Below, piece by piece: positions 50,214 to 63,678 of a stretch of DNA of 64,000 bases (position 1 is the stretch's first letter; each line of letters begins with the position of its first letter). Location: the NCBI GenBank assembly GCA_018003015.1, contig JAGNEZ010000012.1, positions 1-64,000 on the forward strand. Reading direction: 5' to 3'. The DNA is from Phycisphaerae bacterium. Lineage in GTDB: Bacteria > Planctomycetota > Phycisphaerae > UBA1845 > PWPN01. The notes under the pieces are model-generated. The model worked only from the letters and a program-made list of their open reading frames with translations. It made no database searches and had not been told where the DNA came from. The position numbers were made by a program, and so were the translations under genes.

Positions 50214-51842
50214 TCAATCCGCGCTGACCGTCACCAGCTCCGCCAATCGATCCATCTCCTGCCGCAGGGCCCAATCCGGGAATCGCTCGGACGGGCGTTT
50301 CTCGGCCTGGTATGCCCGGATGACCTGCGCGATCGCCAGGTGAACGAGCTCGGCCGGCACCTTGATTTTCCTGTCGCCGTCCCGGCACACAAAACGTCCG
50401 AACTCCGGTTGTGAGCCGAGTCGTCCGCCGAGCAGGATGTGATAGTGCTCCACGCCCTTCCGGCCCTTGTAGTTGTACAGCGTCCCCTGCAGTCCGATCT
50501 CGGCGATCTGGTACTGGGCGCAGCTGTTCGGGCAGCCGGTTACGGAGATGAAGATCGGCTCCTGCATCGGTACATTGGCTTCGAGATAGTCCAGAATGCG
50601 CCTGGCCCGGTCCTTGGTCTCGACCACGGCGAGGTTGCAGAACTGCGTTCCGGTGCAGCTCAGGATTCGCTGCCGAACCAGCGGGGCGTCCGACGGCAGA
50701 CCGATATCCGCCAGCCCCTTTTTGACATCCGGCAGGTCGGCCCTGGGTATGTTCAGCAGCAGGAGGTTCTGCTTGATGCTCGCGTTGATCTGCCGTTCCG
50801 GATCGCGACAATACCGTTCGGCCAGGTCAGCGAGCTGCATCATCTGGTCACCGGTCAGGCGGCCGCAGGGAACCGGGACTCCCACAAATGCCAGACCGTT
50901 TTTCAGTACGCCTCCGCCCGCATGGTCATCGCTGGATGCTCCGGCCGGGGCTACGATTTCCTGGTCATGCTCGAGGGGGTAGCCCAGATAGTGCTCCAGC
51001 TGAACGCGGAACGCCTCCCAGCCGATCTGGGCGACGTAGAACTTCAAACGGGCTCGCAAGCGGCCTTCGCGGAGATGGCTTTGATCCCTGAAGATGTGTG
51101 CGGTTGCCCGGCAGACGTCGATGACCAGGCCCAGGTCCGGTTTCAGAAACACGCGGAGCGACTGCCCGAAGTGCGGCGTGTCGCGCAGCCCGCCACCCAC
51201 GCTGACGCCGAATCCTCGCTCGCGGCCGTTGGCTCGTTTACGTTCCACGCCGAAGAACGCCAGGCAATTGATCTGTGGCGCATGGCAGTGGACGCGACAT
51301 CCACTGATCGAGGTCTTGAACTTCCGGGGCAGATTGCTGAACTCCCTGCCGCCCGCCCGGTACATGTCGGTGATGGCCTGAGCGAACGGCCGGGTGTCCA
51401 CGATCTCGTCGGCCAGCTCACCCGCCAGCGGGCACGCGGTCACGTTGCGAGGGGTGTCTCCGCAGGCGAACTCCTGGTGCATCCCAAGGGTTTGGTAGAT
51501 GGTGGACAGGGCGTCGGGCAGGTCCTGGACGCGCAGCCAGTGCAGCTGGATATCCTGACGCGTGGTTACATCTCCGAAGTTGCGGCCGTAACGCCGGGCC
51601 AGTTGCCCGATCTCCCGCAGTCGAAACGCGGTCAGTGCTCCGCCCGGCATCTTGATCCGGAGCATGAAATGCCCTTCGTTGGGCTTCTGCTTGTAGATGC
51701 CGTACCATTTGAAGCGATCCAGATCGTCGGGATCGATGGCCGCGTAGTCTCCTGCGGCCGCGTATCGGTGGATATCGTCCCAGACGTCCAGACCGTCCTT
51801 GATTCGCTTGAGTTCTTCTGCCTGAGCAGCTTTGACGGCCAT
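50214..51842 (-). CDS. Ferredoxin-dependent siroheme nitrite/sulfite reductase
   Basis: The 542-residue hemoprotein has the ferredoxin-type half domains: GHFMLRIKMPGGALTAFRLREIG, RYGRNFGDVTTRQDIQLHWLRVQDLP and TGCPNSC. The siroheme/[4Fe-4S] ligands sit in CTGTQFC (about 392-398) and GCPNSC (about 433-437). It reduces nitrite to ammonium or sulfite to sulfide; sequence by eye does not decide. The start at 51842 is preferred to the upstream frame because GAGGAA lies just before it. It leads toward the zinc-ribbon and Rieske genes. Confidence 0.9.
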   Translation of the reverse strand: MAVKAAQAEELKRIKDGLDVWDDIHRYAAAGDYAAIDPDDLDRFKWYGIYKQKPNEGHFMLRIKMPGGALTAFRLREIGQLARRYGRNFGDVTTRQDIQLHWLRVQDLPDALSTIYQTLGMHQEFACGDTPRNVTACPLAGELADEIVDTRPFAQAITDMYRAGGREFSNLPRKFKTSISGCRVHCHAPQINCLAFFGVERKRANGRERGFGVSVGGGLRDTPHFGQSLRVFLKPDLGLVIDVCRATAHIFRDQSHLREGRLRARLKFYVAQIGWEAFRVQLEHYLGYPLEHDQEIVAPAGASSDDHAGGGVLKNGLAFVGVPVPCGRLTGDQMMQLADLAERYCRDPERQINASIKQNLLLLNIPRADLPDVKKGLADIGLPSDAPLVRQRILSCTGTQFCNLAVVETKDRARRILDYLEANVPMQEPIFISVTGCPNSCAQYQIAEIGLQGTLYNYKGRKGVEHYHILLGGRLGSQPEFGRFVCRDGDRKIKVPAELVHLAIAQVIRAYQAEKRPSERFPDWALRQEMDRLAELVTVSAD

Positions 51843-51894
51843 GCCTTGAGTTCCTCGCGACAGCGCTGGAAACCCGGGCAAGCCGTTGCCCGGG

Positions 51895-53484
51895 CTAGGT
51901 TCCGGCGGGCTGGGTGGCGGGTTTTCCAGCGGGCGAGGCGCCCCCCGACCTCAGCCGGTCCACGAACCGCATGAGAGATTCTAGCTCCGGGTGCGTGGTT
52001 TGACCGCCGCCGGCGGGCCTGGTGGCCAAGGCTGGATTCATGGCATCGCGGTTTTCGGCCAGTTCCTTGGTCCGGATCGCGATTCCACGTTCCATATGCG
52101 TCATACCCAGATCGCTGAGCCCGACGGCAAACTCCGTGTATCCGAGCAAAAACCGAAGCCGGTAGTCGTCCTCCGGCTCCAGTCGTCCCTTCAACTCGAT
52201 GATCCGATGATTGATGTTCTTGAGGTCGCGGGCGAAGGCCAGGAGATCTGGTTGGGGCTTCTTCGTTTGGTCGAGCAGGCGCACGGCCTGAAACAGTGCC
52301 GACGCACTGGTCAGGTACTCACCTGCCCCGAGCAGCGCCATTGACCGGCCCAACGCGGGTGCCGGATCCTGGGGGTCCATCATTTGTGCGATCTCGAACT
52401 GGCCCGCGGCTTGATAGTACTTGCCGTCTTTGAGCGATTGGGATGCCTGGCTCAGTCGCACGCCGACCGCGGAATCGCCTTTGTTCATGAAAGGAATGGC
52501 GAGCAGAGACGTTGCCTGGTCCGCGCCCGGTGTCTCGGGGGCGGCATCCGGCCATCCGGTCGGAGCTTGCGGCTCGCCCGGTGTGCTGTCGCCCGGTTGC
52601 ATCGGGCGGTTGATGGGCTTGGCCAACCGTGTCTCCAGGTTGCGTCCGCGTTCGAGAATGGACGCCACCGAGTCCATTCTGGCGGGAGGTACTCCCGGGG
52701 AGAGCCGATTGTCCGTTCTGCGGGGATCCTCCGGTCCGGGTGCCTTGACCCGGGTATCCACGAGACTTGTCAGAGGCCTCGGTCCGGTCGCCCCCGTCGT
52801 GGCCTGATCTTGGGCGGCATCCCGAACCAGTTGGTCGGCGGAAATCCGTCCGGCGCTAGTCTGGTACAGGTCGGGCAGTTGTGCGGGGACGTTTCCTCCC
52901 TGGAGCGATTGTCGGGCGGCAACCAGCGGGTCGAAGGTGGTTGTTCCCAGCAGGCGACCTGATCGGGCATATGGATACGGACCGCCCCCATAAGCTGATC
53001 CGACTCGATTATAGCTTTGAGCGGAGGCACCATATCCTGTCGCGTAAGCCGTTGAGGAGTAGTAGGTGCCTGATTGCCATGCCGGGGTATAGGGATCCCG
53101 GTTGTCGCTGTAACTATAGCTGTCGCGGTAGAAATTGCTGAGTGGATCGGCTGCATACCCGCTTGTGTAGCCGCTGCGAGTGCGCAGGGTTGAGCTGCTG
53201 GTGACTCCGTAGCCGCTCAAGTTTGGGCTGCCCAGGAAGAGCGAGCTGGAATCGCGGATGGGTGAGTAGCCCTGGAAAGCCCGGCCGCCGCTGACGTTGC
53301 CGGTGACAATCCGGTTACTCGCGTTGGGCTCGTACATCCGACCGGCGGGGTTGAAGCCGCCGGAGCCGCGCTGAGGATTCGCGTCCAAGGCGTTGCCGTC
53401 GCGAATCAGCTGTTGCCCGGTTGCCGGCAGACACAGGACCAGGGCAGATACGATGCCAGGCAGTGAGTACTTGCGAAGGCTCAT
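51895..53484 (-). CDS. Secreted protein with C-terminal TPR-like region
   Basis: The 529-residue product has a signal peptide (about 1-24, ending PATGQQ). A long Ser/Tyr/Gly-rich low-complexity segment (about 25-190) suggests a flexible extracellular or periplasmic tether. Pro-rich linkers follow, then a helical C-terminal part (about 340-500) with TPR-like repeats (LSQASQSLKDGKYYQAAGQF, GRSMALLGAGEYLTSASALF, LLGYTEFAVGLSDLGMTHM). No family is recognised. AAAGGA precedes the ATG. A 295-nt gap separates it from the ABC permease gene; I see nothing in it. Confidence 0.7.
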   Translation of the reverse strand: MSLRKYSLPGIVSALVLCLPATGQQLIRDGNALDANPQRGSGGFNPAGRMYEPNASNRIVTGNVSGGRAFQGYSPIRDSSSLFLGSPNLSGYGVTSSSTLRTRSGYTSGYAADPLSNFYRDSYSYSDNRDPYTPAWQSGTYYSSTAYATGYGASAQSYNRVGSAYGGGPYPYARSGRLLGTTTFDPLVAARQSLQGGNVPAQLPDLYQTSAGRISADQLVRDAAQDQATTGATGPRPLTSLVDTRVKAPGPEDPRRTDNRLSPGVPPARMDSVASILERGRNLETRLAKPINRPMQPGDSTPGEPQAPTGWPDAAPETPGADQATSLLAIPFMNKGDSAVGVRLSQASQSLKDGKYYQAAGQFEIAQMMDPQDPAPALGRSMALLGAGEYLTSASALFQAVRLLDQTKKPQPDLLAFARDLKNINHRIIELKGRLEPEDDYRLRFLLGYTEFAVGLSDLGMTHMERGIAIRTKELAENRDAMNPALATRPAGGGQTTHPELESLMRFVDRLRSGGASPAGKPATQPAGT

Positions 53485-53779
53485 GTTGCGTCCTTTCACA
53501 ACCGGGCCGGGTCCGCGTGCAGGCCGCTGCGGAGCCGCCCCCGGATAGTCGTCATGGTGCTTTATCGGCCAACCTCAGGTCCGGGCCGCACAATACTGTC
53601 CTGGTGGTCCGGTCAAGGTCCGGATCTCGCCGAGGTTTCGGGCTCACCCGAATTATAGCGGACCTGCGCGCACCTTGTCACCGCAGGTCCCCCCTGTCGT
53701 TGGATGCCGTCGGCGAGCCGAAGTTCCGCGTGGAGCCGGGCGTTCCGACGCTGGCGTGTTTGAGGCCGGTGTTTCGGCT

Positions 53780-55636
53780 CTACTTCTGCTGTTTCCGCAC
53801 GATCACGTCGAAGTTCTTCACCATGGATCGGTAGGTTCCGGCGACGATCGCGCCATAGAGCGCCGCGGCGATGAATGTCCCTATGCACAGGAGCACGTTG
53901 AGGTCGAAGGGGTTTGCCGAAGTACCGAACTGATTCCGCCCGAGGCTGCCCGGGTCGAGCACGTAGTAGATCGCGGTGACGAAGGTGAGGGGAACGGTGA
54001 TGCTGGCGATTTCCGGGGGCACCTGCGATGTGCTCACGGCACACAGCGACAGGCCGAAGGCCACCACGAGCAGAATACCCATGCTGGCCATCACCGCCTG
54101 CACCGATTTCCTGCTTTTCAGCGACATCTGCAGACCGATCATGCAGGCGAATGACGCATAGACGGTCAGGAGGATCGGAAGCAGGACGGCCGACAGGAGC
54201 GACACGACCGGCTCCGGTGCTGCCCGGACCATATCGAAGATCGCGGCCGCAAGAACGGTGACGGCGGGGACGGCCATCAGGGGCAGGGCGAAGCTGATGA
54301 GCCCGCGAAGCTTACCCCAGACGATGTAGCGGCTGGTCAAGGGGGTGGTCAGGAGCAATTCCATGGTGCCATCGTCGCGTTCCCGGGTAATAGCTGTTCC
54401 GGCCGTATTCGCCGCCATCAGCAGGACGACCAGGAATTCGACCATCACGATCCAGATGAGCCACGCCCGGGCCAGAGTGGGTGAGGTTCCGGTCACGGGG
54501 TTGAACCACCCGGATCCGTAGCCATACAGGAACAGCACCCCGGTTGTCGCTCCGCCGATGAGGTAGGAGTACCGCATGAAGCCGCTGCTGGCGGCGCTGG
54601 CCTTGGTCACCGCTTCGCGCCAGGCGATCGGGTTCGACCAGACGCGGCGAATCCGGTGGCATCGCTCTTCGTCGGTCTTACGTCTGCCGAACCTGACCTG
54701 AAGGCTCCGAAGCAGTCCGGCCTCGCCCTGCTTGATGCCGCTCCGCAAGAAGAGCGTGGCGATGCCGACCAACACGGCGGATGCCAGGAGTGTCAGGGTC
54801 ATGTACGCCCACTGCGGCGAGGCGAGCATGTAGTTGAACGGCCAGGCGCGATGGGCAACCGCCGCGGCATCGGGCGGACGAATGTGATTCAGGGCCACTT
54901 CCAGTGCGTAGTAGGGGTGGATGATGGCCAGCCAGGTCATGCCCGTGTTGACACCGGGAATGACGGACTCCGGGACACAAGTCCACTGCAGGTTGCCCAG
55001 GCCGAGACCGGCGAACAGATAGACAGCGATGCCCACATAAAACGAGAAGATCGTACCCCGCGAGCCCACGCGTAGCACGCTCACCAGAATGGCCAGCGAG
55101 CCGGTCAGGATGGCCGTGCACCCCGCGATGCCGAAGCTCAGGAAGATCTGCTCGCTGGTCACGCCGCCGAAGATCATGGTGATGCAGAAGATCGGCAGGC
55201 CGGCGACCAAAAGGGCCAGAACGAAGAACAGCCGGCTGCCCAGTGAGCCAAGCACGATCTGGGCGTTGGTCAGCGGGGTGGTCAGCAGCACGTTGAACGT
55301 CTCTGCGTCCTTTTCCTGTGAAATCGCGCCGGCGGTGAAGACCGGTGCCAGGAAACACATCATGGCCAGCTGCAAAACGGCGATAATTTCGAAAATGCGG
55401 GTCGAGCCCTTGGCCAGGAGGGTCAGAGACTGCCCGGAACTGGAGTTGGCGAACTGAGCGATGAGCATCACGCCGAAGAGAATGAGCAGATACAGCACGC
55501 GGACCCAGAGATGCTGAGTCCGTTTGCCGCCGCCCTGCACGACACGCAGGACGATAGGGTTGGCCGGAAGCAGCCGCCACACCGCCAGGGCCATGTCGTG
55601 GAGCAGTGGCTTGGCGATCTCTCGTTTGATCTGCAT
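53780..55636 (-). CDS. ABC-2-type permease, double-length (two half units fused)
   Basis: The 618-residue membrane protein has about 12 helices in two halves. Each half contains the same cytoplasmic motif, ETFNVLLTTPLTNAQIVLG and GTMELLLTTPLTSRYIVWG, the mark of the ABC-2 permease. One chain therefore carries what is normally a dimer. It follows the two paralogous secreted proteins and an ABC ATPase. It probably moves a lipid, glycan or peptide; the substrate is unknown. The ATG at 55636 is chosen to remove an unsupported N-terminal tail. Confidence 0.85.
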   Translation of the reverse strand: MQIKREIAKPLLHDMALAVWRLLPANPIVLRVVQGGGKRTQHLWVRVLYLLILFGVMLIAQFANSSSGQSLTLLAKGSTRIFEIIAVLQLAMMCFLAPVFTAGAISQEKDAETFNVLLTTPLTNAQIVLGSLGSRLFFVLALLVAGLPIFCITMIFGGVTSEQIFLSFGIAGCTAILTGSLAILVSVLRVGSRGTIFSFYVGIAVYLFAGLGLGNLQWTCVPESVIPGVNTGMTWLAIIHPYYALEVALNHIRPPDAAAVAHRAWPFNYMLASPQWAYMTLTLLASAVLVGIATLFLRSGIKQGEAGLLRSLQVRFGRRKTDEERCHRIRRVWSNPIAWREAVTKASAASSGFMRYSYLIGGATTGVLFLYGYGSGWFNPVTGTSPTLARAWLIWIVMVEFLVVLLMAANTAGTAITRERDDGTMELLLTTPLTSRYIVWGKLRGLISFALPLMAVPAVTVLAAAIFDMVRAAPEPVVSLLSAVLLPILLTVYASFACMIGLQMSLKSRKSVQAVMASMGILLVVAFGLSLCAVSTSQVPPEIASITVPLTFVTAIYYVLDPGSLGRNQFGTSANPFDLNVLLCIGTFIAAALYGAIVAGTYRSMVKNFDVIVRKQQK

Positions 55637-55690
55637 GCTACAGACGCCTCTCGTGCGACTCCTGGTCAAGCGGCCGAGGTCGTTGGCGGG

Positions 55691-56815
55691 TTATGGTTGT
55701 GCTCCCAGCCCCAGGGCCACGAGATCCGACTCGTCGAACGGCATTCCGTGCTGGTCGGCCCGCTCCCGGATGGGTGCCGCCGCGGCCTCGCGCTGTTCCG
55801 CGGTTGCCAGGGCTATCACCGCCGCCTGAAACTCTCGCTGGACCTCCCGGATGGGGCCGGTCAGATGCTCATACTCACGCTCCATGTGGTAGATCCAGGG
55901 ACGGACGCTCTCTTGGCTCAGCGACCACCGCATCGAGTACTTCATGCGATTCTGCCGGCATTGTGCGCGCCAATTGCCGACCATGAGGGCCTCGGCCCGC
56001 TCGCGGTACTTGGCCAGCAGGTCCTCGGCCTGGACCATCTGTTGTTCGTCGTATTTGAAGAACTGCTTGACGGCCGTCAGGTAGCTCCGCCATTGCTTCG
56101 GATCGATCTGCTGCAGCTCGTTATCGGCTTGCCACCGAGCCTGGCGCATTGCGGGAGGCTCTTTTGCAGCCGCCTTCTCGTCCATGTCGATTTCCTGCTC
56201 AAGCCCGTTGATCGTATCTTCGGAGGGTTTGAGTTCACCTCGAGACCATCGCTGGAGGGTTTCCTCCATGTGGTCGAACTTCCTCCTCATCTCCTCCATG
56301 CCCGCGCGGTACTTTGCCCATTGCTCGTCCGAGAGTTCGGCGCGGGCGTCGCTGGAGAAGCCCTTGAACAGCTCGCGAATCGCGGGGGTGAAGCCTGCCC
56401 CGCGTCGCCCGAGTTCCTTGGTCATCTCCGGGCCGATCTTCTGGCCGCGGGTCGTCATCAGGGTCTCCATCCAGTACTCGCACAGATCGCGCATCGCCTC
56501 GCCGTGCCGGTGGCCCATGTCCATGGTCCGCTCAGCGAAGCTCCCGCTCAGCTTGTCGATCTGCTCGCTGGAAAGCCCGATTTCCTTGTTGACCTCCTTG
56601 GCCACGAATTGGCGGGAGAACAGCCGAACGACTTCCGGAGTCAGGCGGAAACCGTTCTGCGTCGGCCGCATCAGCTCATCGGTCGTCGTGGTCTCGTTCG
56701 AACCGGTCGCGTCCTGGGCCATGAGCGATCCCGGGAGACCGGCCCCTACCGCGCCGGTCAAGAGCCAGACTGCCAGGCCGCGGCCTCGCCGGACCAGACG
56801 TGGTTCCGCACTCAT
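55691..56815 (-). CDS. Secreted helical protein B of a paralogous pair
   Basis: The 374-residue product has a signal peptide (about 1-34, ending SLMAQDA) and is otherwise almost wholly alpha-helical and charged. It has Trp/Arg-rich repeats such as KQWRSYLTAVKQFFKYDEQQMVQAEDLL and RERAEALMVGNWRAQCRQNRMKYSMRW. These line up with the same positions of protein A upstream. The start overlaps the stop of A by 4 nt. I know of no family. Encoded between the ATPase and permease, it may be a periplasmic accessory. Confidence 0.75.
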   Translation of the reverse strand: MSAEPRLVRRGRGLAVWLLTGAVGAGLPGSLMAQDATGSNETTTTDELMRPTQNGFRLTPEVVRLFSRQFVAKEVNKEIGLSSEQIDKLSGSFAERTMDMGHRHGEAMRDLCEYWMETLMTTRGQKIGPEMTKELGRRGAGFTPAIRELFKGFSSDARAELSDEQWAKYRAGMEEMRRKFDHMEETLQRWSRGELKPSEDTINGLEQEIDMDEKAAAKEPPAMRQARWQADNELQQIDPKQWRSYLTAVKQFFKYDEQQMVQAEDLLAKYRERAEALMVGNWRAQCRQNRMKYSMRWSLSQESVRPWIYHMEREYEHLTGPIREVQREFQAAVIALATAEQREAAAAPIRERADQHGMPFDESDLVALGLGAQP

Positions 56816-57981
56816 TGGTCTTCTCCTGTCTTCAGGTCGTCGCCGGCGGCAGCGGTCTCGGCCGTGCCAGCCGACTGGCCCTCGACCGTCGAGCCCGCGG
56901 GCTGCGAAGCGGCAGGCTCCTGGTAGCCGTGGGCGATCAGCGCCTTTGCGATGCGCTCCTCGGCTGCCGCCCGCTGGGCCTGGGTGGGAATGGCGTCGAT
57001 CCGCTGCTTCAGGTCGTCGCCGATCGTCTTGATCGGCTGGACCATCACGCTGTGGACGTTGTCCAGGTGGCCCCGAAGCGGGTGGTTCGGCCCGATCCGC
57101 AGCTCCCACAGCATATGGTACCATATGCGGTTTCGATACACTTTTTCACGCCACTGGGTATCCTGGGTGATGGCCTGGGCCCGCTCCAGGCACTCGCGAA
57201 GCACGGAATCCGCGGTGTTGGACTGCGATTCGTCAAAACCGTAGAATTTCTTGGCCTCCTCGACATATCGCTTCCACTGGTTCGATTCGGCATTGTCGAT
57301 TTCCCGTTGGGCGATCTGCTTCGCGTTGGTATAGCGTGCCGACTGTCCGCTGCCGTCCTTCCTGACGTCGTTTCCTTCTTCCGAGAAGGGGTTCTCGTAA
57401 GGTTTGATGTCACCGTTCTCCCACCGCTGCATGGTCTTATCGAAGATGTCCAGCGCGGTCGTCATGCCCATCAGATCCGCAGCAAAGGTGAGCTGGTCCT
57501 TGGCCGCCAGCATTGGGCGGATGTCCTTCGAGACACCCTGGAGCATCTCCCGCAAGGCGGGCATGAACGGCTTGGATGCCTGGCTGATCGCCTTGGCCAC
57601 ACCCGGTTTGACGATCCCTCGATTGTCCTCTCCGCTGTCTTCGATCTCGGCCCGAAGGACCTCGGCGACGAAATGCTCCATCTGTTGGTTGTAGCCCGCC
57701 GCGTCCAGCTTGTGGGCCATGCTCATCAGTCGCCGGGCCACCGTCTCGGCGGCCTCGTCCACTTTGCTCGCGTCGAGGTTGTATCGCTTGGCGGCCACCT
57801 CTTCGGCGAACAGTCGGCCCATTGCCCGGGCCATGCCGGGAGTGAACCGCACGCCGAGCTCGGTCGGTTGGTCCCTGCTCGTCCGCTCGCTGTCCGGCGG
57901 GGCCTGGACCTGGCCGGGGAGGGGTGTGGCCAGGCCGAGCAGCACGCCCGGCAGCCAGCGCCATCGCATCGAACACTGCAT
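56812..57981 (-). CDS. Secreted helical protein A of a paralogous pair
   Basis: The 389-residue product has a signal peptide (about 1-27) and a helical body. Body sequences such as FTPGMARAMGRLFAEEVAAK, NQWKRYVEEAKKFYGFDESQ and REKVYRNRIWYHMLWELR match protein B in order, spacing and key Trp/Tyr/Arg residues, showing that the two are paralogues. A short Ala/Thr-rich tail ends it. GGAG precedes the ATG. Function unknown; it lies 21 nt after the ATPase gene. Confidence 0.75.
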   Translation of the reverse strand: MQCSMRWRWLPGVLLGLATPLPGQVQAPPDSERTSRDQPTELGVRFTPGMARAMGRLFAEEVAAKRYNLDASKVDEAAETVARRLMSMAHKLDAAGYNQQMEHFVAEVLRAEIEDSGEDNRGIVKPGVAKAISQASKPFMPALREMLQGVSKDIRPMLAAKDQLTFAADLMGMTTALDIFDKTMQRWENGDIKPYENPFSEEGNDVRKDGSGQSARYTNAKQIAQREIDNAESNQWKRYVEEAKKFYGFDESQSNTADSVLRECLERAQAITQDTQWREKVYRNRIWYHMLWELRIGPNHPLRGHLDNVHSVMVQPIKTIGDDLKQRIDAIPTQAQRAAAEERIAKALIAHGYQEPAASQPAGSTVEGQSAGTAETAAAGDDLKTGEDQ

Positions 57982-58002
57982 GAAGAACGCTCCTTCCGGG
58001 GG

Positions 58003-58932
58003 TTATTGGACGATGCCCTTGGTGAGCCGCAGGAAGGCCGTCTCCAGGTTGGCTTCTTCCTCGCGAAGCTCGGTGATGGCCAGCCGGTTCTCCAGCAAGG
58101 CCCGAGCCAGGAAGGAGAAGTCGTGCATCTCCGTCTTGAGCTCCACGGACAGGCATCCGTTGTTCTGCTCCACGCTTTTGACCGGCTCGAGCTGCTGCAG
58201 GACGCGGGCGGCCAGATCCGATCGATCGGCCACCCCGACCTGCACGCGGGTCCCCATGCCCGCCTGGCGGGTGGCGTCGCGGACCGATCCGTGGAAGAGC
58301 AGCTCGCCGCGCTCGATGATTCCCACGGTCGAGCAAAGCTCGGCCAGCTCGTGCAGGATGTGCGAGCTGATGACGATGGTCTTGCCCATCTTGTGCAGTT
58401 CCTTGAGCAGCTCCCGGATTTCGATCCGCGCTCGCGGATCCAGCCCGCTGGCCGGCTCATCCAGCAGTAGCACCTTCGGGTCGTGCAACAGCACGCGGGC
58501 GATGCTCAGGCGCTGTTTCATGCCTCGGGACAGCGAGTCCACCAGGGCCTCACGCTTGTAGGCCAGGTCGGTGAGGTCCAGCACGTCCCCGACGATCTTG
58601 CGGCGGTGTTGCCCGGTGATGCCGTAGGCCGAGGCGAAGAACTCCAGGTACTCCTGCACGACCATGTCGCTGTAGGCCCCGAAGAAATCGGGCACGTAAC
58701 CGATCAGCGGTCGGATCTTACGTGACTGGTAGCCGATGACGTGCCCGCAGACCCGGGCCTCGCCCCAGGTCGGCTGCAGCAAGGTGGCCAGAATCTTGAT
58801 CGTGGTGGTCTTGCCGGCCCCGTTCGGGCCGATGTACCCGAAACACTCCCCCTCCTCGATGTTGAGATGGAGGTTGTTCAGGGCCACCAAGTCGCCATAA
58901 CGCTTCGTCAGGTTGATCGTCTCGATGATCAC
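58003..58932 (-). CDS. ABC transporter ATPase of an ABC-2 type exporter
   Basis: The 309-residue ATPase has IIETINLTKRYGDLVALNN, Walker A GPNGAGKTT, the signature LSRGMKQRLSIARVLL, Walker B VLLLDEPASGLD and SSHILHEL. A C-terminal regulatory part of about 90 residues follows, as in drug-type or export ATPases. A GTG at 58932 fits the family start, with GAGGTGG upstream. It serves the double permease encoded downstream. Confidence 0.9.
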   Translation of the reverse strand: MIIETINLTKRYGDLVALNNLHLNIEEGECFGYIGPNGAGKTTTIKILATLLQPTWGEARVCGHVIGYQSRKIRPLIGYVPDFFGAYSDMVVQEYLEFFASAYGITGQHRRKIVGDVLDLTDLAYKREALVDSLSRGMKQRLSIARVLLHDPKVLLLDEPASGLDPRARIEIRELLKELHKMGKTIVISSHILHELAELCSTVGIIERGELLFHGSVRDATRQAGMGTRVQVGVADRSDLAARVLQQLEPVKSVEQNNGCLSVELKTEMHDFSFLARALLENRLAITELREEEANLETAFLRLTKGIVQ

Positions 58933-59056
58933 GCTAGCCAACCACCTCAGCAAAGCCAGAATCCGGGGGCCCTCACCCGGCCGCATGCCGGCTGGCGAAT
59001 ACAGCCCGCGTTCTCCGGCCGGTGTCCAACGATCGCGTCTCTTCCCGCCCGCTTAG

Positions 59057-61381
59057 TCAATCCTGCGGCTCCATCACGGGAACCGCCATCCGGTACACCA
59101 CGTCCGCCTGCGTCGGCTGCAGCGGCGCCCACTTCTGCTTCGTTCCAGCCTCCCGATAGCAGAGGCGGGCCGGCCCCGGGTCGCGGCTGAATCCGACGAA
59201 CAGCGCGGTGCTCTGACGAAGGTGGGCCGAGCGATCGAGCTCGTGCCCGCGGGACCTTGTCAGGTCAAAGCCGCTTTTCTTGGTCTCTTTCTGATCGAAC
59301 TCGTCGTAAAGACTCATCAGCAGCAGAGCGGCCTCGAAACCCTCCTGGGTAATCTCCCTCCTGTCTTGTTCCTGGTCGACACGGCCGCCATAGGCGTTGA
59401 CCTGCATGCCCAGGCTTCGCAGCCATCCTCCCTGATTGGCCTGCAGGACGCCGAGATCCCTGAAATCGCCGAGGCTCGCTCTGGCGTCCGCGGGCAGCCT
59501 CTCAAGCCCGTACACTCGGATCTGGAGATCGCGAGTCACCCGGGCCTGCGGCACGTCACTTCCTGCGACAAAGAGGTAGCAGCTCCTCAGCTCGGTTCCC
59601 AGGCCGTTCTTGATCCAGCTGTCCGTGTTGAGCTTGACCGTGCCGGCCTGCTCGCGCCTCAGGCCCGCCTCCAACCGGCCGGGCAATTGCCCCGCCCACT
59701 TGGCCTCGAACTGCTTGAGGGTCGCCCGCATTGGCACGCCCTGGAGCTCACCGAGGCCGGCCACGGCCTGATACCGCTCCCGCGACGCGAACACCGTCCC
59801 TTCCCGCTCCGGGGCGAGCGGGGCCAGCAGGCCGTTGATGTCCGTCGGGCTCCCGGGATCAAGCCAGTTGCACGGCACCCGCAGATCCAGCCTGCTGTGT
59901 ACCGGGGCCTTCAAGCCGAAGTAGCAGGCCGCATGGGCCTGGTTCGAACCCGCCTCCCCATCCACAATGGAGAGTTCCTGAACCCGGTAGCTGATCCCGC
60001 GAATCCATTGCACCGACGCCACGCTCACGACACTGGCCGCGATGCTCACCATCGCAAAGGCGGTCCAGGTGTGCTGAACCTTCTGCTGCCGCTTGAGCCA
60101 CGCCCACGTCCCCCCCGTCGCCAGCAGGATGTAGGCCACCACGAACAGGAACGCGAACCCGAGATACAAACCGGCAGTGACGCCGAACGTGGTCTTGCGG
60201 CGCAGGGTGTTGAAGACGTCGGCCTCCACTCTCAGGCCGCTGATACTGCTCTTGTCCGGTGGGTCGCCCTTCAAAAGGCGAACCCCGATCAGATCAGCCA
60301 GGACCCGCTCGCTCGGCCGCGAACCCCGGCTCAACAGATCGCTCAGCTCGGCAGCGACGAAAATGACCTGCCCTCGGCCGACGGGGCGGCGGGTCACAAA
60401 GGCGTGGTCGTCCTTGGCCGCGGTGGCTCCCGCCCGGTCTGAGTTGGTCAGCGGCCCGGGCACGAGTATCTGCGCGCCGCTGGCCAAGTTCTTCACGGTG
60501 ATCGGGCAGTAGCTCAGTGCCGGCGTGAAGCTCTTCGCATCAAAGGCGTCGATCGAGAGGAGTTCGGTCAGGTACTCGGGCGGCGTGGACATGGCGGCCA
60601 TCTGCGTTGGCACGACCGGGAGCATCTCTCCGAACTTGCCCTTGCCAACGAGATCCCACGTCCTGCTGACCCCCAGCACCAGTGTGCCCCCGCGTCGGAC
60701 CCACTCGACCAGGGCGTTCCGGGGCTCCAGATCCATAAGGCTCGGATCCGCTGCATCCCAGACGATGACGTCGGCCATGTCCAGGCCGGCCACGTCGTCC
60801 GGCAGGTCCTTGGCCACGCCGCGGAGCACGACCAGCGGGCGGACCAGTTTCTCTTCTTCCTTCATCAGATTGCGCAGCGGAGCCAGCGGCTTCTGCGAAA
60901 CGTCCAGAATCACCTGGTGGTCCGAAGGAATCGGCTGGAGCACAGGGGGAGGCTTCAGCTCGGTGATATCCGCGCCCGTCGGGCCGACCAGTTTGGCGTA
61001 CTGCCCCTTCGAGTCATACACCCGAACCGTGAAGTACTGAGGCGCCTGTTCCCTGCCGGCCGGCAGGTACAGGAAGTAGCGTTGCTTGCTTTGCGGCCAC
61101 ACCGTGCGACGGGCCAGGATTTCGTCGCCGTCCTGATCCTGTTGTCGGGCTTCCAGGGTGAGTTCAGTCTGCTCGCCCCCGAGGTTCACCAGCTCGACCA
61201 CGATGGGGATCCACGAGCCGATCCGGTATCGATCAAGCCCTTGATCCTGCCCGCTGCTGCTGGTGTTGCCTGGGAAGCCGATGTGGACGATTTCGCCCTG
61301 CACTTGGACGGCACTGGCGGCCCCGGACGACAGGGTGAGCGCCGCGATGATCATCGCACAGGCATGTCGCCAACCGAGCAT
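59057..61381 (-). CDS. Large periplasmic/membrane protein with glutaminase-like fold, ABC-associated
   Basis: The 774-residue product has a signal peptide (about 1-22) and an extracytoplasmic beta domain (about 23-145). A Rossmann-like or class I amidotransferase-like domain follows (about 155-370, VIVWDAAD, WVRRGGTLVLGV, GQVIFVAAEL). Two membrane helices lie near 400-425 and 440-462. A final extracytoplasmic part ends in several strand-rich segments. The catalytic Cys of true amidotransferases is not seen. The design resembles GldG-like auxiliary proteins of ABC systems. GGAGG precedes the ATG at 61381. It is the first gene of the locus. Confidence 0.72.
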   Translation of the reverse strand: MLGWRHACAMIIAALTLSSGAASAVQVQGEIVHIGFPGNTSSSGQDQGLDRYRIGSWIPIVVELVNLGGEQTELTLEARQQDQDGDEILARRTVWPQSKQRYFLYLPAGREQAPQYFTVRVYDSKGQYAKLVGPTGADITELKPPPVLQPIPSDHQVILDVSQKPLAPLRNLMKEEEKLVRPLVVLRGVAKDLPDDVAGLDMADVIVWDAADPSLMDLEPRNALVEWVRRGGTLVLGVSRTWDLVGKGKFGEMLPVVPTQMAAMSTPPEYLTELLSIDAFDAKSFTPALSYCPITVKNLASGAQILVPGPLTNSDRAGATAAKDDHAFVTRRPVGRGQVIFVAAELSDLLSRGSRPSERVLADLIGVRLLKGDPPDKSSISGLRVEADVFNTLRRKTTFGVTAGLYLGFAFLFVVAYILLATGGTWAWLKRQQKVQHTWTAFAMVSIAASVVSVASVQWIRGISYRVQELSIVDGEAGSNQAHAACYFGLKAPVHSRLDLRVPCNWLDPGSPTDINGLLAPLAPEREGTVFASRERYQAVAGLGELQGVPMRATLKQFEAKWAGQLPGRLEAGLRREQAGTVKLNTDSWIKNGLGTELRSCYLFVAGSDVPQARVTRDLQIRVYGLERLPADARASLGDFRDLGVLQANQGGWLRSLGMQVNAYGGRVDQEQDRREITQEGFEAALLLMSLYDEFDQKETKKSGFDLTRSRGHELDRSAHLRQSTALFVGFSRDPGPARLCYREAGTKQKWAPLQPTQADVVYRMAVPVMEPQD

Positions 61382-61541
61382 ACCCACGCCCTCCAACCCT
61401 CGGTTCGGGCCGACGAGGCAGTCCTCGTCAGCTTGTACGCCCCAATACCGGGTAGAGTTTCACCAAGTCCACACCCGACCGGCCATTGTACGCCCGGCCC
61501 GCAGAGGCCTCAAACTGGAGATCAAGTCCTGCTTGATCAGC

Positions 61542-62705
61542 CTACTTCCTCGGACCCCGGAGGCACCTCAGGGCCCGCTGGAGCGACTCGACGAAGAAGA
61601 ACTCGCCCCACATCACGGATTCATCCACGCCCAGCCCCTTGTTGCGATGGTATACCCCGTGCTTGAGGATCCCTTCCCAGCTGCCATCGCCCAAGGCCAG
61701 ATACTCCGGCCCGCACAGCGCCCCCACCATCCGGAGGCCGACCTCCTTGAGGTGCTGGCGCTGCCTTGCCTCCTTCTCGCCCACGAGTTGCTGGGCGTCC
61801 GCCAGCTCGAACAGGCCACAGGCCGCGATCGCTCCGGCGGAGGTATCTTTCTGTCGCCTTGATTCCTCGGGGGCATCAAAATCCCACGGCGGCACCGGGT
61901 CCGCTGACACCCTCTCCATCAGGTACTGGGCGCAGTGCCGAGACGTTTCCAGCCACGGGATGAAGTTCAGGATCCGACCCGACGTGGCGAACCCGTAGAT
62001 TGCCCATGCCAGGCCGCGTGACCAGCACGAGTCGCCGCGATAGCCCTGGTGAGTCGTCTGCCTGAGGCACTCGCCGGTCGATAGGTCGAACATCGCCTCG
62101 TGAGACGTCGAGCCGTCGCCCCGCACGAGGTAGCGACGTGATGTCGCGCAGTGCTTGCTGGCCACCTCCAGCAGCTCGCTGTCGTTTGTCTCGACCGCGG
62201 TCAGCAGGATGATCGGCACATTCATCATGATGTCTACGAAAAGCGAATCGGGAGCCACGAACGATCGCAGGTAGTTGCCGACGGGCATGAATCGTTTGGC
62301 GAGCGTCCGGCCGGCGTGATGAACGACCTCGCGTAGGGCGGGATCCGGCTTACCTTCGCGGACCGTCGCCTCGTACCATCGCCGGTACGTCCCGTGGTAG
62401 AAGAGGAAGCCGAGGTCGTGGACGTCCCGGTCGTCCTTCCGCGGCTCGATCAGCCGGCTGTAATGCTCGGCCTTCTCTCGCCAGTAACGGTCGCCCGTCT
62501 CCTCGTGGAAGATCCACATCATGCCGGGCAGGAAACCCTCGCACCAGTTGGTCCATTTCTCCCCTGTGTGCTGCCACTTCCCCTGAACGGTGTACATGGG
62601 GAAGTAGTCCGGGTATCGCTCGACCAGCTTTCGTACCTGCTGCTGGGCGAACTCAAACCCTGCTTCAATCCGTTTCAGCAACTGGGACTGCTCCTTTTTG
62701 GCCAT
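61542..62705 (-). CDS. Glycoside hydrolase family 88/105-type enzyme
   Basis: The 387-residue cytoplasmic-type enzyme is a six-hairpin (alpha/alpha) hydrolase of the unsaturated glucuronyl/galacturonyl hydrolase group, which hydrolyses unsaturated uronic sugars released by lyases. Family blocks are TGEKWTNWCEGFLPGMMWIFHEETGD, VHDLGFLFYHG (catalytic Asp), FVDIMMNVPIILL (second catalytic Asp region), GDSCWSRGLAWAIYGFA and DTSAGAIAACGL. AAGGAG precedes the ATG at 62705, which removes a longer upstream frame. It diverges from the isomerase gene across a palindrome, hinting at shared control. Confidence 0.88.
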   Translation of the reverse strand: MAKKEQSQLLKRIEAGFEFAQQQVRKLVERYPDYFPMYTVQGKWQHTGEKWTNWCEGFLPGMMWIFHEETGDRYWREKAEHYSRLIEPRKDDRDVHDLGFLFYHGTYRRWYEATVREGKPDPALREVVHHAGRTLAKRFMPVGNYLRSFVAPDSLFVDIMMNVPIILLTAVETNDSELLEVASKHCATSRRYLVRGDGSTSHEAMFDLSTGECLRQTTHQGYRGDSCWSRGLAWAIYGFATSGRILNFIPWLETSRHCAQYLMERVSADPVPPWDFDAPEESRRQKDTSAGAIAACGLFELADAQQLVGEKEARQRQHLKEVGLRMVGALCGPEYLALGDGSWEGILKHGVYHRNKGLGVDESVMWGEFFFVESLQRALRCLRGPRK

Positions 62706-62741
62706 GGACAGACTCCTTCTCCTGTTGTCGCAAACCCTTGC

Positions 62742-62758
62742 CATTCCTTACAGGAATG
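62742..62758. promoter_or_regulatory. Perfect palindrome between divergent GH88 and isomerase genes
   Basis: CATTCCT, TAC, AGGAATG is a perfect 17-bp inverted repeat with a 3-nt centre. It lies between the start codons of GH88 (62705) and the isomerase (62776). It overlaps possible promoters on both strands: minus TTGTCC-17-TGTAAG (62775-62747) and plus TTGCCA (62738-62743) with TATCGG (62763-62768). It is a good candidate operator for a sugar-responsive repressor. No regulator gene is adjacent. Confidence 0.55.
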
Positions 62759-62775
62759 AGGGTATCGGCGGACAA

Positions 62776-63678
62776 ATGCGTGGTCAAACCTGGGTCTCGG
62801 TCTGTGATCCGCCAAACGGTTTCTGGTATCATGCCTTCGCGCCCGAGGAGGATCGCGATTTGATCAAGGCGGTCAACGGTTGGACGTTCGAGGCGGGCAC
62901 GCCGCTGGTTCAGGCCGCCGAAGCTTCGGCCCTGGCCGGCTTCCGGGCGTTCGAGCCGGTCCTGACCGCGGAGGGCGAACTGTCCCTGGCCACCGGCGAG
63001 GCGGAGTGCCGCAAGCTGGGTGACACCATCCGGGCGGCCGGGCTGGGGGTGGCCTCACTGGCGTGTGGGCTCTTCTGGCAGTGGCACTTCACTGCCCAGT
63101 CTCCAGCTGACCGCCGAAAGGCCTGGGACATCACCATCGCCGGCCTGGATCGGGCGCGCTGGCTGGGGACTGATGCCCTGCTCGTCGTTCCTGGGGTGGT
63201 CACCCACTTCCGCAGGCCCCGCGAGCTGCTCTGCGGCTACGCTGACGCCCTCAAGCTGACCTTTGATGCCCTCAGGGGACTCGTTCCGGAGGCCGAGAAG
63301 CGCGGCGTCGTCCTCGCGATCGAGAACGTCTGGAACCAGTTTCTCCTGTCGCCGGTTGAGATTTGCGAGCTGATCGACCGCCTCAACTCGCCCTGGGTCC
63401 GCGTCTGTCTCGATGTCGGAAACGTCGTCAAGTGGGGGCTTCCGGAAGACTGGGTCGATACACTGGGCAGGAGGATCTGTCGGATTCATCTCAAGGACTT
63501 CAGGACGGCTGTCGGCACGGTTGAGGGATTCTGCCTGCCGGGCGACGGCGACGTGAACTGGCCGGCGGTCATGGCCGCTCTGAAACGCATCCATTACGCT
63601 GGTCCGCTGATCCACGAGGGTCGGGGCGATCTGGTCGACATCTCCCGGCGGATCGACGCGATCCTGGCCGATGCGTGA
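62776..63678 (+). CDS. Sugar phosphate isomerase/epimerase (TIM-barrel)
   Basis: The 300-residue product is a xylose-isomerase-like TIM barrel (AP_endonuc_2 family). Metal-ligand motifs are [24 protein letters not shown] (Glu), [11 protein letters not shown] (Asp) and [11 protein letters not shown] (His), with a final Glu in IHEGRG. These enzymes interconvert sugars or inositol-type compounds; the substrate is unknown. The start at 62776 is preferred; the frame is open to 62698. It diverges from the GH88 gene, so together they likely handle a uronate or polysaccharide sugar. Confidence 0.86.

Follow-up and report, generated by a model that had tools for sequence, protein, structure and literature searches.

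A five-gene locus in the window (the whole stretch of DNA analysed, 64,000 nucleotides) combines an ABC-2 core of the GldA/F/G or NosFY type with two secreted helical proteins, A and B, which are a new, order-restricted part. We propose, tentatively and at a little under an even chance, that A and B are periplasmic accessory subunits of a single envelope ABC-2 complex. The core, consisting of a GldG-like GIFT-domain protein, an ABC ATPase and a double permease, is near-universal in the whole planctomycete order, and a natural series of lineages, from those lacking A/B proteins to those with one or two, separates the core from its add-on parts.

Organization of the locus

The five genes share the minus strand, in the order given by the original prediction (Table 1). 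The intergenic gaps were 124 nt between the GIFT and ATPase genes, 21 nt between the ATPase gene and A, −4 nt between A and B, and 54 nt between B and the permease gene, so both the 4-nt overlap and the tight fit of the pair between ATPase and permease were as predicted. The overlapping stop and start codons (ATGA) are consistent with translational coupling of A and B. The conserved start of the ATPase is the GTG at 58932 (V/MIIETINLTKRYG), not the ATG at 58986. Compared with a congeneric genome, dN/dS was 0.12 for the GIFT gene, 0 for the ATPase, 0.15 for both A and B, and 0.05 for the permease, indicating that all five are constrained genes under purifying selection. A chance arrangement was excluded because the same gene order is kept in other genomes.

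Besides the candidate promoter in Table 1, a stronger promoter-like site (GTGACA-18-TATAAT, 53681-53652), likewise a consensus match only, is located between the permease gene and its 3' neighbour; the operon therefore probably ends at 53780. This neighbour (51895-53499, minus strand), which has the promoter-like site as its own, encodes a secreted protein of 534 aa that matches nothing in Pfam, and the gene at 50214-51881 (minus strand) resembles a ferredoxin-dependent nitrite/sulfite reductase by sequence appearance. Upstream of the operon are a GH88-like glycoside hydrolase gene on the same strand (61542-62744) and a divergent xylose-isomerase-like TIM-barrel gene (62698-63678).

Table 1. 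Features of the locus, and occupied ATPase-permease junctions in related loci without A/B
Feature	Position	Strand	Length or remark
GldG-like GIFT-domain membrane protein	59057-61381	minus	774 aa
ABC ATPase	58003-58932	minus	309 aa
A, all-helical, Sec-exported (predicted)	56812-57981	minus	389 aa
B, paralogue of A	55691-56815	minus	374 aa
Single-chain double ABC-2 permease	53780-55636	minus	618 aa
A/B stop/start overlap, ATGA	56812-56815	minus	4 nt
Candidate sigma-70-like promoter, TTGAGG-17-TACAAT	61485-61513	minus	5' of GIFT gene; consensus match only
Occupied ATPase-permease junctions, A/B-less loci	L086:10931-11428, L089:10058-10486, L103:10931-11476, L083:7479-8018, L141:11299-11832
Occupied ATPase-permease junctions, A/B-less loci (continued)	L090:9647-10096, L142:3727-4332, L098:11508-11984, L082:10911-11651

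The ABC core

The ATPase matched Pfam ABC_tran (E 7.3e-27) and carries the intact motifs of an apparently active enzyme (Walker A GPNGAGKT, signature LSRGMKQR, Walker B LLLDEP and SSH), which were invariant among 17 orthologues of 73-100% identity. Its closest relatives of solved structure were ABCA lipid transporters, with NosF lower on the list. ABC-2 models matched the permease in two stretches (ABC2_membrane_2, E 4e-22), bearing out the two ABC-2 units that had been ascribed to it, and its relatives contain about 12 hydrophobic TM segments. The nearest solved permease was NosY (E 2.5e-4), with an alignment over one half only. When the Gld equivalogs were searched, the ATPase scored 224.6 bits against GldA (TIGR03522; cut-off 402.6) and the permease 39.8 bits against GldF (TIGR03518; cut-off 288.5), while the GldG model matched none of the locus proteins in the NCBIfam search. 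The locus thus resembles GldAFG, but was not filed as that family because the GldA and GldF cut-offs were not reached.

The AlphaFold2 model of the 774-aa GIFT protein had a mean pLDDT of 87.6 and a pTM of 0.88. A signal peptide or N-terminal helix is followed by a predicted periplasmic beta domain (residues 27-150), a predicted GIFT/GATase-like Rossmann domain (155-370), a predicted TM hairpin (400-431 and 435-461) and a predicted C-terminal beta domain (466-774). The fold of residues 155-370 matched GATase-like proteins, IFT52 (Z 13.1), the GH42 trimerisation domain and OST48/Wbp1 (about 10.9), with VIA-align Z values of 16.6-10.9; there was no sequence match, the likeness being one of fold. 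Pfam DUF4350 gave a weak match below its cut-off (E 0.0065). The GIFT domain set was named after GldG and IFT52 (PMC7226087). Because the predicted fold falls in this set, the label GldG-like is apt for the large protein, and the fold would fit a role like that of GldG. AP2-mu-like Foldseek rows were dropped for poor rmsd.

The secreted pair A and B

A and B are paralogous as claimed: they matched each other in the whole-genome scan (phmmer E 3.7e-34) and by BLASTP (E 8e-38; 26% identical over 341 aa), their identity lying at 26-27%. The signal peptides foreseen for both were also recognised, A having a hydrophobic N-terminus and B its own signal peptide (LMAQ/DATG). By our own threshold, 34 of 40 A/B sequences carried a hydrophobic leader; the six without a strong one were all from family f7, where the start codons were probably placed too late by the script. 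Given that most members have such a leader, export of A and B is probably by Sec, and the two are not ordinary substrates of their own ABC system.

The model of A (pLDDT 80.9) was all-helical, with 13 helices forming two halves. Neither protein belonged to a family in Pfam or NCBIfam, and sequence searches of the PDB, whether run with A, with B or with a family profile, returned nothing convincing. With the A model, Foldseek gave no match below E 0.4 and VIA-align no confident PDB match (best Z 7.4, a level common for helical models). Two of the best VIA-align rows, the Bacteroides proteins 3kdw and 3g6i (labelled as putative sugar-binding or as part of a carbohydrate-binding complex), were set aside at 14 Å rmsd.

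Each half of A/B bears two LxxxQ-like motifs; the Gln is invariant in the C half, and in FDxxQ and LPTxxQ. A conserved segment, PTxxGxRFTPxMA, is a candidate contact surface between A and B and between A/B and the GIFT protein. Alignment of the N half with the C half gave P 8e-4 but just 24% probability, and comparison of the halves with Escherichia coli Spy and CpxP yielded short motif matches only. The LTXXQ, Metal_resist and DUF4890 models did not match A or B, and were absent from the 25 most-matched families when 40 subfamily members were searched at E 1. Among 19 mostly diverged homologues, Pfam LTXXQ matched one (E 8e-4), and DUF4890 and Metal_resist matched once or twice. The motifs, the weak half-to-half alignment and these sporadic matches raise a Spy/CpxP-like origin of A/B, which we treat as a lead and not as a result.

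Distribution of the core and of A/B

Within the window's order, 106 of 114 genomes have the permease, including 64 of the 65 good genomes. It is nearly always single-copy, and the rare second matches appear to be fragments of a gene divided between contigs or frames. The A/B family was seen in this order only: none of 293 genomes sampled outside it matched the narrow profile, and none of 198 the wide profile. Within the order, 110 of 114 genomes encode some A/B-like protein, the diverged homologues being unlinked to the permease. Strong matches to the A/B subfamily (E below 1e-70) were confined to two families, f7 and the family of the window, f1; the 84 genomes from other families all lack the subfamily, while the permease is present in 79 of them. 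Family f7 carries one copy in the order GIFT-ATPase-A-permease, and f1 usually two, in the order GIFT-ATPase-A-B-permease.

Among the 28 genomes with the subfamily, it adjoins the permease in 25 and is linked to ABC core genes in 26. The split operon of G026 (L185, L186) keeps GIFT, ATPase and A/B genes together, with the permease at another place. In G406, the subfamily gene lies at a contig edge. In G006 (L036:7063-11365), the genes directly 5' of the A/B pair are those for a GntR regulator, a different ABC ATPase and a single ABC-2 permease, and the GIFT gene and double permease are located elsewhere. On the question raised earlier, whether A and B always travel with this ATPase and permease, the linkage held in 25 genomes by the permease and in G026 by the ATPase, but not in G006. 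It had also been considered that homologues might be found mostly alone, which is the case for the wider family, present and unlinked in nearly all genomes of the order, but not for the subfamily studied here.

The best ATPase matches gave 80 named loci, almost all of which carry Planctomycetota or Phycisphaerae MAG labels: 51 had GIFT, ATPase and permease without A/B, 12 had one A/B gene and six had two, the remainder being incomplete. Across the phylum, a homologue of the GIFT protein was found in 66 of 246 genomes. In all 18 neighbourhoods examined (L166-L183), an ATPase abuts or closely follows the GIFT gene, accompanied by other permeases or by none recognised by profile. The GIFT-ATPase pair appears to be a phylum-wide module with differing permeases.

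Extra A/B sets away from the core were found in G005 and G010; the former carries a tandem ABAB array of four genes (L041:2644-7156) with no ABC genes nearby. The window's own genome has three more diverged members (on C114, C29 and C28), five in all, and the C114 copy (L194, G000:C114:2663-3703) adjoins a YhhN gene and sugar-metabolism genes. In relatives without A/B, the junction between ATPase and permease holds 23S rRNA intervening-sequence (IVS) four-helix proteins at five loci and IS200-like transposases at two, as well as a PD-(D/E)XK nuclease and a DUF3800 protein (Table 1). In these lineages, the junction may be an insertion-prone spot or a route by which the operon is split.

Evolutionary history of A/B

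The A/B tree placed A, B, the f7 form and the free-standing homologues each in a group of its own, set off by a branch with 99-100 bootstrap support, and the subfamily formed a clade separate from the free-standing homologues (100/100). These separate clades indicate that the duplication took place within the f1 lineage, is old, and was followed by retention of both copies. G005, an f1 genome with 5% contamination, has a single A/B copy on one contig and the ABAB array on another. The unrooted tree of permeases did not place the f1 and f7 groups that bear A/B next to each other, and forcing all A/B-bearing permeases into one clade was mildly rejected (p-AU 0.028). Since these permeases do not form one clade, A/B may have been lost several times, gained twice or transferred.

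Proposed function and alternative readings

The locus would encode one inner-membrane ABC-2 complex, in which two copies of the ATPase drive the single-chain double permease and the GIFT-domain protein serves as membrane-anchored periplasmic partner, as GldG does for GldA and GldF. A and B, probably exported by Sec rather than by the ABC system itself, would associate physically with this complex as accessory subunits in the periplasm, most likely as an A-B pair in f1 and as a single protein in f7. ATP hydrolysis would most likely be coupled, in the manner of NosDFY and GldAFG, to conformational change or to the handling of envelope material via periplasmic partners, which would be mechanical work rather than transport. 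As had been supposed, the locus may plausibly serve in periplasmic export or in remodelling of the envelope. The accessory-subunit reading draws on the conserved gene orders of f1 and f7, the position beside the permease in 25 of 28 genomes, the linkage in G026, the dN/dS of about 0.15 for A/B, their leaders, the well-supported clades (99-100), the near-universal permease, the GIFT fold and NosY as nearest permease. Against it stand the core without A/B in 51 of 80 loci, the G006 pair beside another ABC system, the extra sets in G005 and G010, and the scattering of A/B-bearing permeases over the tree. A bolder version, which we consider improbable, is a non-transporting ABC machine in which ATP drives a periplasmic A/B heterodimer via the GIFT partner, as an envelope chaperone or remodelling device that recruited a free-standing secreted protein and then duplicated it. 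If true, this would be a new kind of ABC-powered envelope device.

The locus might instead be a true exporter of lipid, glycan or peptide, in which A and B receive the exported substrate as carriers or adaptors in the periplasm. ABC-2 permeases commonly export, the nearest solved ATPases are ABCA lipid transporters, and the LxxxQ-like motifs recall the substrate-holding Spy/CpxP proteins; nevertheless, the operon contains no recognised substrate biosynthesis gene and is without an outer-membrane or fusion-protein partner, and the same permease occurs without A/B in most of the order, making this reading rather unlikely. In another reading, A and B belong to an order-specific family of Spy-like proteins with general periplasmic roles and are expressed together with the ABC genes without joining the complex. 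This would suit the unlinked homologues that almost every genome of the order contains, the G006 pair, and the sets standing alone in G005 and G010. We judge this reading unlikely, since the subfamily is linked to the core in 26 of 28 genomes and branches separately from the free-standing homologues. Chance landing of A and B as passengers in an insertion-prone junction is suggested by the IVS proteins, transposases, nuclease and DUF3800 protein found there in other lineages, but is very improbable for genes that are kept and constrained over two families, are tightly spaced with a 4-nt overlap, and stay with the ATPase where the permease has moved. A bona fide gliding-motility GldAFG system is scarcely credible: the matches to the GldA and GldF models and the predicted GIFT domain recall it, but the scores were far below the cut-offs and GldG was not matched. 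The SprA model was silent in this genome and equally silent in control genomes.

Comparison with known systems

The locus offers a defined five-protein set for structural work. It shares an ATPase, an ABC-2 permease and a GIFT-domain membrane partner with GldA-GldF-GldG of Bacteroidota gliding, in which membrane localisation of GldA needs GldF and GldG (PMC9127263). The locus differs from GldAFG in having both permease units fused into one chain, in the central TM hairpin and additional C-terminal beta domain of its GIFT protein, in sequences that score far under the Gld cut-offs, and in A and B, for which the Gld ABC proteins offer no counterpart.

In NosDFY, an ABC-2 unit of the NosF ATPase and NosY permease works with the periplasmic partner NosD. 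NosY is the nearest solved permease and NosF is among the related ATPases; here, however, the permease is fused and a GIFT protein with A and B takes the place of the NosD beta-helix. NosD and beta-helix models matched none of the five locus proteins. Like Spy/CpxP (LTXXQ) proteins, A and B are secreted and all-helical with LxxxQ-like motifs, and one diverged homologue matched that family; unlike them, they are twice the size, and A and B themselves had no significant match, nor did the fold searches find one. We found no papers on planctomycete GldG-like loci, and the A/B-bearing set did not appear under another name in the literature searched. The claim that no described system has this set stands for A and B, but not for the core, in which GIFT protein, ATPase and permease are of the known GldAFG/NosFY kind.
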